Source: Flavobacteriaceae bacterium YJPT1-3 (GTDB lineage Bacteria; Bacteroidota; Bacteroidia; Flavobacteriales; Flavobacteriaceae). Taken from it: a stretch of 64,000 bases of DNA. Location: positions 1,281,501 to 1,345,500 of the forward strand of contig CP123444.1 in assembly GCA_029866965.1 (NCBI GenBank). Direction: 5' to 3'. The notes beneath the pieces are model-generated. The model saw nothing but the letters and a program-made list of their open reading frames with translations, made no database searches and was not told the origin of the DNA. Positions 3,535 through 5,320 of the stretch are shown in pieces. A program made the position numbers and the translations under genes. Numbering within the stretch: position 1 is the first letter of the stretch; each line of letters begins with the position of its first letter.

Positions 3535-4476
3535 TTACATGATAAACTTCGATGCAATGCTGGTGTTGTTATTCACCCGGTGCATAACATCGGCAAAAAG
3601 GGGAGCACAGCTCACCACTTTTATTTTTTTACTTTCTTGTTTCAACGGAATACTGTCGGTGACGATCAGTTCTTCCAGTTTGCTGGCTTCCAAACGCTCA
3701 TAGGCATTTCCGCTTAAGATGGCATGCGTACAAATAGCGCGTACGCTCAAAGCACCTTTTTCCATCATCAGGTCAGCCGCTTTGGTCAGGGTGCCTGCGG
3801 TATCCACCATGTCATCGGCGAGGATGACGTGCTGCCCTTCCACGTTACCGATCAGTTCCATATGCGAGATCACATTGGCTTTAGCGCGTTGTTTGTAGCA
3901 TATGACCACTTCGCTTTCCATGGCTTTAGAATAGGCATAAGCCCTCTTACTTCCTCCCATATCCGGCGAGGCCATGGTCAGATTCTCCAGGCCTAGATTT
4001 TTGATGTAGGGCAGGAAGAGCGTTGAGGCGAACAAGTGATCGACCGGCTTTTCGAAAAAGCCCTGAATTTGATCTGCATGCAAGTCCATGGTAATGATGC
4101 GGGTCGCTCCAGCGGTTTCTAAGAGGTTAGCCACTAATTTAGCGGCGATGGGAACCCGAGGTTTATCTTTTCGGTCTTGTCGTGCCCATCCAAAATAAGG
4201 AATGACTGCCGTGATGTGGCGGGCAGAAGCACGCTTGGCAGCATCCAGCATCAAGAGCATTTCCATCAAGTTGTCACTGCTAGGCATGGTAGAACCGATA
4301 ATGAATACCCGAGCACCACGCACTGATTCTTCAAAAGACGGTTGAAACTCACCATCGCTGTAGGTGGAGGTAATGATTTTCCCTAAGTCCTGCCCGTATT
4401 CCTTGGCAATTTTTTCAGCTAAGGCCTTACTGGCAGAGCAAGCGAATAATTTTGGTTCCGGTACTGTGGTCTGCAT
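3535..4476 (-). CDS. prs: ribose-phosphate pyrophosphokinase
   Basis: Prs makes PRPP from ribose 5-phosphate and ATP for nucleotide, His and Trp synthesis. The 313-residue length is normal. Visible motifs are the pyrophosphokinase signature DLHADQIQGFF near residue 130 and the PRPP-binding loop VILADDMVDTAGTL near residue 220. It is the first gene of the prs-rplY transcript, with a candidate promoter about 50 bases upstream. Confidence 0.96.
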   Translation of the reverse strand: MQTTVPEPKLFACSASKALAEKIAKEYGQDLGKIITSTYSDGEFQPSFEESVRGARVFIIGSTMPSSDNLMEMLLMLDAAKRASARHITAVIPYFGWARQDRKDKPRVPIAAKLVANLLETAGATRIITMDLHADQIQGFFEKPVDHLFASTLFLPYIKNLGLENLTMASPDMGGSKRAYAYSKAMESEVVICYKQRAKANVISHMELIGNVEGQHVILADDMVDTAGTLTKAADLMMEKGALSVRAICTHAILSGNAYERLEASKLEELIVTDSIPLKQESKKIKVVSCAPLFADVMHRVNNNTSIASKFIM

Positions 4477-4601: not shown

Positions 4602-4609
4602 TAATTTTG
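4602..4609 (+). promoter_or_regulatory. -7 element ahead of the tRNA-Leu remnant and GIY-YIG gene
   Basis: Exact TAATTTTG. It ends 12 bases before the tRNA-like sequence, the spacing expected for a tRNA promoter. No -33 element is evident. It is the only promoter I can see for the downstream intact tRNA-Leu. Confidence 0.5.
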
Positions 4610-4629
4610 CCGTCCAGAATTGCCTTGGT

Positions 4630-4643
4630 CCTGCCTACGGCAG
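4630..4643. repeat. CCTGCCTACGGCAG inverted repeat
   Basis: Half-length version of the palindromic element at 4669-4688, inserted after the first eight bases of the tRNA-like sequence. Confidence 0.6.
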
Positions 4644-4668
4644 ATAAAGGCGAGAACGAATTGGTAGA

Positions 4669-4688
4669 CCTGCCTACCGTCAGGCAGG
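4669..4688. repeat. palindromic repeat CCTGCCTACCGTCAGGCAGG
   Basis: Seven-bp inverted arms CCTGCCT/AGGCAGG around six bases, inserted where the D arm joins the anticodon arm of the tRNA-like sequence. A shorter relative lies at 46809-46822. Confidence 0.7.
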
Positions 4689-4723
4689 CGCGCTGCGACT
4701 TAACTCGCAGTATTGAAAAAGTG

Positions 4724-4981
4724 ATGGTATTGATATGGGTTTATGCGATATCAAGTGTGAATCAGAACTACATTTATGTAGGAATGACTCAAGATTTATT
4801 TGCCAGAATTAAGAGGCATAATGCAGGCAGAGAACGCACAACAAAGCCCTATCTGCCCTATGAATTGATTTATAGTGACTCTTTTGAAACAAGAGCGTTA
4901 GCTCGGAAAAAGGAAAAGTTCCTCAAAACAGGAGTAGGAAAAGAAAAATTACGACTTTTAAGAAGTAATAAAAATAAATAG
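4724..4981 (+). CDS. GIY-YIG nuclease family protein, single-domain
   Basis: An 85-residue protein made only of a GIY-YIG domain: WVYAI near residues 5-9 and YIYVG near 16-20, then the usual R-x3-H helix (RIKRHNAG) and a basic C-terminus. ATG 4724 is chosen because the domain starts there; the open frame runs further upstream from TTG 4607 but that part is the tRNA remnant. The stop codon's last base is the first base of tRNA-Leu(CAA). Small proteins of this UPF0213/YhbQ-like group are of uncertain function. The position between a broken and an intact tRNA-Leu suggests a link to tRNA loci, which is inference. Confidence 0.85.
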   Translation: MVLIWVYAISSVNQNYIYVGMTQDLFARIKRHNAGRERTTKPYLPYELIYSDSFETRALARKKEKFLKTGVGKEKLRLLRSNKNK

Positions 4982-5060
4982 CCTTGGTGGCGGAATTGGT
5001 AGACGCGCGCGACTCAAACTCGCGTTCTTCGGAGTGTGGGTTCGATTCCCACCCAAGGTA
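4981..5060 (+). tRNA. tRNA-Leu(CAA)
   Basis: Eighty bases. Acceptor GCCTTGG pairs with CCAAGGT (one G-U pair), discriminator A, no encoded CCA. The anticodon stem CGCGA/TCGCG closes loop CTCAAAC with anticodon CAA. There is a short extra arm and a T arm GTGGG-TTCGATT-CCCAC. The first base overlaps the stop codon of the GIY-YIG gene. Confidence 0.95.
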
Positions 5061-5083
5061 CAATAAGCCAAAAAATTGGCAAG

Positions 5084-5122
5084 AAGCGAGCAATCTTAAA
5101 TAAAGAAAGCTCGCTTTTTTTA
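5084..5122 (+). terminator. intrinsic terminator after tRNA-Leu
   Basis: Stem AAGCGAGC / GCTCGCTT with a 17-base loop, followed by seven T. Confidence 0.75.
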
Positions 5123-5320
5123 TTTGAGAGCGTGAGACTTCAATTTTTTGGCTTTCACGCGGAGCTTGCAGGGAACATTCGCCGCAGGCGAATAAATCCC
5201 ACCTCGATTCGATTGCTTCAATGTACAGAAGCTCGCTTTTTTTTGGAATAAAGCGAAGTGTTTGTTTTTGTTGCTTTCACGCGGAGCGTGAAGGGAACAT
5301 TCGCCGGAGGCGAATGAGTG
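5108..5320. repeat. imperfect tandem duplication, 122-bp period, each unit with two small hairpins
   Basis: Unit 1 starts at 5108 and unit 2 at 5230, both with AGCTCGCTTTTTTT. In each unit a 43-base core follows (5151-5193 and 5273-5315): GCTTTCACGCGGAGC, then AGGGAACATTCGCC, then AGGCGAAT. The core forms two stem-loops, CACGC-GGA-GCGTG (perfect only in unit 2) and ATTCGCC-N3-GGCGAAT (perfect in both). The stretch 5123-5379 holds no gene that I can support. Confidence 0.75.

Follow-up and report, generated by a model that had tools for sequence, protein, structure and literature searches.

Transfer RNA (tRNA) genes are classical integration sites. Integrative elements with tRNA attachment (att) sites keep the tRNA whole and carry a partial tRNA at their other end, and repetitive extragenic palindromic (REP) sequences with RAYT transposases combine short dispersed palindromes with a partner enzyme. 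In this study we analysed 64,000 nucleotides (nt) of Flavobacteriaceae bacterium YJPT1-3 (the window; positions 1281501-1345500 of the 3.16-Mb single-contig genome), where a small GIY-YIG nuclease gene lies between a broken and an intact copy of tRNA-Leu. The nearest known system is SegB of phages T4 and T6, a free-standing GIY-YIG homing endonuclease encoded in the phage tRNA region (PMC13096335, PMC2988022). According to these papers, SegB of T-even phages cuts inside tRNA genes. The motif RAWTSGAAC occurs at 23 of the 83 sites mapped, and co-localisation of SegB shows no apparent preference for particular isotypes (PMC13096335); moreover, SegB is needed for tandem amplification of tRNA together with the segB gene (PMC13096335; PMC2988022). 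In our reading the motif resembles the complement of the T arm. GIY-YIG open reading frames (ORFs) have also been described in ribosomal RNA (rRNA) genes of bacteria of the Candidate Phyla Radiation (CPR), within insertions unlike group I or group II introns, and the accessible part of that report offers no homing interpretation (PMC11270868).

Our preferred reading, to which we assign a probability of about 70%, is that the window holds a minimal mobile homing-type GIY-YIG element which occupies tRNA genes and duplicates part of the host tRNA. A search of open PMC papers, which covered no preprints and few subscription journals, found no description of such a chromosomal family, of its partial tRNA duplication, of its palindromes or of its isotype fidelity. 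Our comparisons point to a family of minimal mobile elements that is widespread and apparently undescribed.

The tRNA-Leu(CAA) locus and its empty counterparts

The locus lies in a 4-kb stretch (L014) with the following features.

3535..4476, - strand: homologue of prs (ribose-phosphate pyrophosphokinase) from the ORF list, named on our assumption from its sequence; conserved neighbour used for finding the empty site
4602..4610, + strand: promoter-like motif TAATTTTGC of the TAnnTTTG type, which we take to be the promoter consensus; probable original promoter of tRNA-Leu
4622..4629, + strand: remnant of tRNA-Leu nt 1-8, GCCTTGGT, identical to the intact tRNA
4630..4648, + strand: first hairpin insert CCTGCCTACGGCAGATAAA, after tRNA nt 8
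4649..4668, + strand: remnant D arm GGCGAGAAC GAATTGGTAGA, partly decayed (GAATTGGTAGA at 4658-4668)
4669..4688, + strand: second insert CCTGCCTACCGTCAGGCAGG, a variant of CCTGCCTGCCGGCAGGCAGG, after tRNA nt 23
4689..4710, + strand: remnant anticodon arm, decayed (CTTAA for CTCAAA)
4724..4981, + strand: GIY-YIG nuclease gene, 85 amino acids (aa); stop codon TAG at 4979-4981 overlaps tRNA base 1
4981..5061, + strand: intact tRNA-Leu(CAA) (ARAGORN 4981-5061; Rfam 4981-5060)
5085..5121, + strand: terminator-like hairpin and T run 3' of the tRNA, seen by eye

The broken tRNA-Leu copy (4622-4710) begins at tRNA nt 1, reaches the anticodon arm and is split by two palindromic inserts. An earlier note on the window, made from its letters alone, had described a promoter-like element, a partial tRNA-Leu, an 85-residue GIY-YIG gene and an intact tRNA-Leu(CAA), and all of these parts are present. 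The predicted protein (ORF 4724-4981) matches PF01541 with 53.3 bits (cut-off 22.6), and its TAG stop indeed shares base 4981 with the tRNA. The two inserts (4630-4648 and 4669-4688) had gone unnamed in that note. Of the anticodon arm with TAA that the note had pointed out, the arm is confirmed. The triplet itself does not stand for a second isoacceptor and is most simply explained by decay of CTCAAACTCG to CTTAACTCG, because 27 comparable loci each have one complete tRNA-Leu(CAA). The element at this locus consists of the GIY-YIG ORF alone between promoter and tRNA, with no integrase gene in the unit. As to a group I intron, Rfam at gathering threshold matched two tRNAs only in the window and no intron RNA around the ORF.

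The neighbouring prs gene was used to compare this site in related genomes. Of 40 genomes, 37 had a prs match. We read 30 loci, some truncated at contig ends. At 27 of the 30 loci tRNA-Leu(CAA) was found, with exactly one complete gene in each. A nuclease was present at two of these 27 (YJPT1-3 and genome G019) and absent from the other 25 (family profile, E 1e-3); the genome with the closest prs (G012, 85% identity) has an empty site. Since 25 of 27 loci lack the nuclease and each has one complete tRNA-Leu(CAA), the comparison argues for an insertion that left the tRNA whole and did not involve a tRNA pair. Thus, of the two scenarios that the earlier note had offered, insertion into an existing tRNA pair is not supported, and the other, in which a nuclease gene inserts while tRNA-Leu is disrupted and regenerated, gains support. 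A third carrier at the prs site is a Croceitalea metagenome-assembled genome (MAG; L060, prs identified by eye), whose nuclease is the closest found (67% identity).

The note had also supposed that the intact tRNA relies on the promoter of the broken copy. A TAnnTTTG motif lies within 70 nt 5' of the tRNA in 21 of the 25 nuclease-free prs loci, and 18-30 nt before it in 18 of these; the G019 locus (L153) has one 32 nt before the intact tRNA. The window carries no TAnnTTTG on the + strand at 4611-4981, that is, between the broken copy and the intact tRNA. TAATTTTGC is the sole + strand match to TAnnTTTGC in the 4-kb stretch, where two matches with both strands counted are unremarkable by chance (44 of 200 shuffles). 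With the element placed between promoter and tRNA, the intact tRNA-Leu(CAA) of YJPT1-3 most likely depends on read-through from the promoter before the broken copy, as supposed.

A tRNA-Met site was compared within one genus, where the query stretch was matched in 60 of 61 genomes. Among the best 30 loci, all with tRNA-Met as expected, only genome G226 carried the nuclease, in five tandem units, and the remaining 29 were free of it.

Downstream of the tRNA terminator in the window, a short repeat GCTTTCACGCGGAGC...GGGAACATTCGCC...GGCGAAT was seen by eye in two similar copies (5151-5193 and 5273-5315). A motif somewhat like it follows the tRNA-Arg array in L011, again by eye.

A family of small nucleases at tRNA genes

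Searching public genomes with five YJPT1-3 proteins, we kept the best 80 of 322 relatives (the named set), picked by likeness to the query proteins and not by neighbourhood. The phyla of 76 members comprised 54 Bacteroidota, 18 CPR and one each of Nitrospirota, Verrucomicrobiota, Fidelibacterota and Ignavibacteriota. With the addition of 30 loci from relatives, and of 110 stretches from 247 surveyed Bacteroidota genomes, the total came to 220 loci with 302 ORF hits. The survey stretches come from the top of the listed matches, one per cluster chosen by eye, and do not cover all listed places. A matching nuclease (E 1e-12 or better) was present in 118 of the 247 Bacteroidota genomes, not always at a tRNA. 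A search of NCBIfam with five proteins returned no family.

The nearest tRNA within 200 base pairs (bp) was on the same strand in 181 of the 302 ORF hits and on the opposite strand in none. By set, such same-strand neighbours were found for 15 of 42 hits in relatives, 74 of 86 in the named set and 92 of 174 in the survey. As some places had been fetched twice, we also counted distinct sequences (270, of which 269 are in the binned table): 169 of 269 had a same-strand tRNA within 200 bp and none an opposite-strand one. Forty loci, most of which lack an ARAGORN tRNA, were scanned with Rfam at gathering threshold. New were one RNase P RNA, one small RNA (sRNA) family and one insert-bearing tRNA (L060); one transfer-messenger RNA (tmRNA) and one tRNA were already known. 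Most of these 40 loci had no known RNA neighbour at that threshold.

Two layouts recur. The "down" layout, as at the window locus, runs from a partial 5' tRNA through the nuclease gene to the intact tRNA; the "up" layout runs from an intact tRNA with its terminator through the nuclease gene to a partial 3' tRNA with a terminator. An exact block of at least 12 nt common to the tRNA and the far side of the ORF was found in 146 of 169 distinct pairs compared to 7 of 845 controls with another isotype, which answers the concern that upstream blocks of this kind are random matches. The block starts at tRNA nt 1 in 54 of 75 "down" pairs and reaches the tRNA end in 36 of 71 "up" pairs. The acceptor variant of the local tRNA was found in the remnant in 75 of 89 "down" (exact 8-mer) and 57 of 80 "up" cases, and other variants of the same isotype in 9 of 1215 and 5 of 671, respectively. 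The acceptor stem of the intact tRNA is paired at 7 of 7 positions in 156 of 169. The acceptor variant in the remnant is that of its own host, and hence the restored half is host-like; we infer this to reflect either a long target duplication or a carried half that was corrected later. In addition, overlap with the tRNA gene was found for 37 of 88 "down" ORFs, whose mRNA would therefore be cut by 5' processing of the tRNA.

The YJPT1-3 genome has nine PF01541 matches, seven of which are small genes. Six of these seven adjoin a tRNA or belong to an array ending at one: two in tandem before tRNA-Met(CAT) in 341-bp units, two in tandem before tRNA-Arg(TCG) in 301-bp units, one after tRNA-Asn and one at tRNA-Leu(CAA). 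The seventh small gene lies about 480 bp downstream of tmRNA. The nuclease units at tRNAs in this genome include a partial copy of the same tRNA. Downstream of tRNA-Thr(GGT) and of tRNA-Gly(GCC) (L015 and L021) there are two tandem 3' part-copies each, spaced 112 bp and 108 bp, with the palindrome described below and without a nuclease gene; these look like non-autonomous relatives. Near position 1500 of L028 a palindrome by tRNA-Trp is flanked on the complementary strand by sequences like GGGTTTA and GCTCAG (by eye), which looks like a partial D-arm copy of tRNA-Trp without a nuclease gene.

Several related genes were noted in other settings. Of the large tandem arrays, that of L200 has five nuclease units at a spacing of 450 bp; that of L237 has eight, about 364 bp apart, in a stretch where ARAGORN found no tRNA. 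GIY-YIG genes lie about 400-500 bp downstream of tmRNA in two genomes (L012 and L039), and in L279 a GIY-YIG gene is placed at the 5' end of the gene for RNase P RNA. Others (L228, L266 and L038) lie where a gene encoding the motif VTGGAGFIG begins, a gene that we take to be of the sugar-nucleotide dehydratase type; by eye, this host gene has a partial 5' copy upstream and its complete start downstream, paralleling the tRNA cases. Yet others lie by eye within integrase-like or transposase-like genes (L195, L232, L238 and L249), in units spanning 285-311 nt with perfect inverted repeats of 11-17 bp at their borders. A phage origin was considered and rejected, with one relative only among viral contigs.

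A tree of 243 nucleases (78 columns, many unresolved forks) was used to follow isotype and host. Isotype required 28 changes compared to a shuffled mean of 112.0 (minimum 101), and the division Leu/Ser/other 8 changes (mean 84.2, minimum 75). Within the named set, isotype required 5 changes (mean 18.0, minimum 15) and phylum 19 (mean 20.2, minimum 17), the latter being chance-level clustering. The tree thus follows isotype and not host phylum, which indicates horizontal movement with isotype fidelity as far as comparison of these sequences goes. The side of the tRNA is clustered as well (31 changes; mean 65.0, minimum 57). Recognition of the anticodon within Leu was rejected, as anticodons are unclustered (24 changes; mean 25.6, minimum 22). 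Ratios of nonsynonymous to synonymous substitution rates (dN/dS) were 0.09, 0.12 and 0.18 in the three closest pairs, with a median of 0.35 over 194 more divergent, non-independent pairs. Judged by these ratios, the nuclease gene is under purifying selection.

The ORFs of the family mostly have 77-90 aa. Residues Y7, Y18, R28 and E64 are invariant in 80 sequences and G20 is present in at least 90%; we presume these to be the catalytic-type GIY-YIG residues. The AlphaFold2 model of the window nuclease is a single compact domain with a mean predicted local distance difference test score (pLDDT) of 95.3. Foldseek returned the UPF0213 protein BH0048 (E 6e-4), followed by Slx1 (E 4e-3), a nuclease that acts on branched DNA, and by the catalytic domain of I-TevI (E 0.29).

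Palindromic inserts in the tRNA remnants

Split alignment of the 169 pairs for inserts of 12-60 nt found 166 inserts from 128 loci. Recurrent insert points lie after nt 8/9 (for example in L119, L030 and L137), 14/15, 21-23 and 26, as well as within the anticodon loop and the T arm; the position after nt 23, that of the second window insert, is shared by many tRNA-Leu remnants. A perfect stem of at least 6 was present in 105 inserts, one of which has undetermined letters and is to be discounted. The stems have a mean length of 6.5 compared to 3.8 in shuffled inserts, and 69 beat all 30 shuffles. Interruption of remnants by palindromes, for example the 20-base perfect palindrome CCTGCCTGCCGGCAGGCAGG, is common across the family. 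By eye, CCTGCC...GGCAGG accompanies most Leu and many Arg and Met nucleases, some Arg nucleases have CCCGCC...GGCGGG, and Ser and Pro nucleases mostly have other hairpins. With classes defined by simple patterns of our own, the palindrome class tracks the nuclease tree (12 changes; shuffled mean 38.6, minimum 33).

The palindrome (at most one mismatch) occurs in 37 of 247 Bacteroidota genomes, with none in the reversed control. A matching nuclease is present in 32 of these 37 genomes compared to 86 of the 210 others (p 1.6e-7), and in a nearer set of 60 genomes in 8 of 9 compared to 20 of 51 (p 0.007); both statistics ignore kinship, and YJPT1-3 was counted in both sets. In the YJPT1-3 genome a relaxed palindrome (at most two mismatches) was found at 27 places, with 0 in the reversed control, and a search for a Y1 transposase gave 0 PF01797 matches at E 0.001.

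Targeting of hairpin loops by the palindrome was rejected. We used 49 palindrome sites, 41 in 40 stretches of other genomes and 8 in YJPT1-3, many of which lie in other dispersed repeats and two of which adjoin a tRNA (L313 and L028). Stems spanning the junction did not exceed in length those at random positions (mean 3.16 vs 3.30), and stems of at least 6 bp were found at 0 of 49 sites compared to 67 of 980 random positions. Genome G066 has its palindromes concentrated in a region of about 32 kb (L314-L320, L322 and L323), mostly inside a larger dispersed repeat with GTCATTCCGAG.

Proposed mechanism, alternatives and known systems

Comparison shows the layout, the empty sites, the isotype fidelity, the spread across phyla, the purifying selection and the arrays. 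The mechanism we propose goes further, to cutting, homing, read-through and a role of the palindromes, which we infer from sequence. The sole gene of the element would encode a GIY-YIG nuclease of about 80 residues, and its home would be a tRNA gene. Insertion would duplicate part of the host tRNA, namely the 5' part if the gene comes to lie upstream of the whole tRNA and the 3' part with the terminator if it lies downstream. Since the duplication would be partial, one complete tRNA would remain, with a part-copy across the nuclease gene. At the window locus the 5' part would have been duplicated, and the old promoter would read through the broken copy and the nuclease gene into tRNA-Leu(CAA). 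The nuclease would cut or nick a tRNA gene of its own isotype, and the element would be copied in by repair, as happens in homing. The tandem arrays seen by comparison would arise when cutting recurs and tRNA pieces recombine with each other. The palindromes would plausibly make the leftover piece a poor target and a poor recombination partner; in the carrier allele of the window the part-copy is broken by palindromes and the intact tRNA is still present.

Several observations weigh against this mechanism. The intact tRNA is a potential target of the nuclease beside it, and the proposed mechanism does not account for survival of the carrier. Of the 302 hits, 121 have no tRNA within 200 bp; many of these tRNA-distant hits, not all, are inner members of tandem arrays, and others are weaker matches. 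No exact 12-nt block was found in 23 of the 169 pairs, and the nuclease tree, resting on 78 columns, is poorly resolved. At the prs site gain and loss are inseparable because the nuclease of G019 (42 of 73 residues identical) and that of L060 are carried there too. In L060 a full-length tRNA-Leu(CAA) (2761-2862) has a palindrome inserted after nt 23, and no intact tRNA-Leu copy occurs in its 4.1-kb stretch; this may be an artefact of the MAG, a real break, or an extra arm on a tRNA that still functions. Finally, the protein is hardly more than a catalytic domain, with no separate DNA-binding domain in the AlphaFold2 model. Speculatively, a foldable tRNA gene might stand in for such a domain.

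The gene has a tRNA-Leu sequence on either side, and the anticodon-like triplet of the upstream sequence is different. Such a layout could stem from a tandem tRNA-Leu pair between whose members the nuclease gene landed, with decay of the upstream gene. However, each of the 27 prs loci has a single complete tRNA-Leu(CAA). The part-copy usually has the acceptor variant of the adjacent tRNA in many isotypes, so that such pairs would need to be ubiquitous, and we consider this origin very improbable. We also give little credence to a tyrosine recombinase that uses tRNA att sites and moves these stretches in trans with the nuclease as a passenger. The "up" type, a whole tRNA and a displaced 3' piece, does resemble such anatomy, but the "down" type separates the tRNA from its promoter, the nuclease phylogeny tracks isotype and the restored half is host-like. 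Furthermore, the units comprise by eye one small ORF and tRNA pieces, a view limited to the units, as a genome-wide integrase search was not made. About equally unlikely is a domesticated or toxin-like enzyme whose substrate is RNA, either the tRNA or its hairpin-bearing partial copy, for instance in a tRNA-sensing or defence module. The implied co-transcription with the tRNA, the overlap of "down" ORFs with the tRNA gene and the isotype fidelity would fit this role. On the other hand, presence at one site is patchy within a genus, the units form tandem arrays, the 5' and 3' versions have very unlike partial RNAs, cousins lie in an RNase P RNA gene and in protein genes, and the fold is nearest to DNA nucleases and UPF0213.

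A different matter is whether the palindromes belong to the element. They could be an unrelated REP-like repeat that accumulates in dead tRNA pieces, which would be compatible with a mobile homing-type element. Palindromes also occur away from tRNA genes and inside other dispersed repeats, and 5 of the 37 palindrome genomes lack a matching nuclease. Against this stand the number of inserts and loci, the agreement of palindrome class with the nuclease tree, the association with the nuclease (its p value ignoring kinship) and the lack of a Y1 transposase match in the YJPT1-3 genome. We regard an unrelated repeat as possible, if rather doubtful. Only tentatively, and with similar doubt, do we suggest that the family forms a class of mobile element of its own: about 300-450 bp long, chromosomal, pairing a catalytic-domain-only GIY-YIG nuclease with a cognate palindrome that it would recognise as folded DNA or RNA, in clades largely faithful to an isotype, entering tRNA genes by duplicating part of the host tRNA and spreading among Bacteroidota, CPR and other phyla.

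If the mobile-element reading is true, very small, self-contained mobile elements live in the tRNA genes of a large share of Bacteroidota, and the family provides nucleases of about 80 residues that are naturally ordered by the tRNA they target. Several questions then become testable: how a protein of this size could tell one isotype of tRNA gene from the others, how a parasite persists in an essential gene that it does not destroy, and why several phyla have a 20-base palindrome in common.

Among known systems, integrative elements with tRNA att sites share the whole tRNA and the partial tRNA at the far end, whereas the units described here are about 300-450 bp long, have no integrase in the unit, occur in 5' and 3' versions and have a host-matching restored half. 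Like REP/RAYT systems, the family has short dispersed palindromes and a candidate partner enzyme; this candidate is a GIY-YIG nuclease, and the YJPT1-3 genome has no Y1_Tnp match. In the CPR rRNA insertions, too, GIY-YIG ORFs lie in the gene of a structured RNA, but our family occupies tRNA genes, keeps a whole copy and has a nuclease that tracks its target. Small GIY-YIG proteins of UPF0213/COG2827 are the nearest solved structures by fold and sequence (1zg2 and 1ywl). With SegB the family shares a GIY-YIG gene among tRNA genes. In contrast to SegB, it is chromosomal with one viral-contig relative, encodes about 80 aa and lies beside one tRNA, with a part-copy of that tRNA and palindromes, and its clades keep to an isotype. 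SegB and I-TevI are presumably longer, with a separate DNA-binding domain, a region missing from the predicted structure of the window nuclease. On this comparison, we class the family as GIY-YIG and homing-like and not as a member of SegB.
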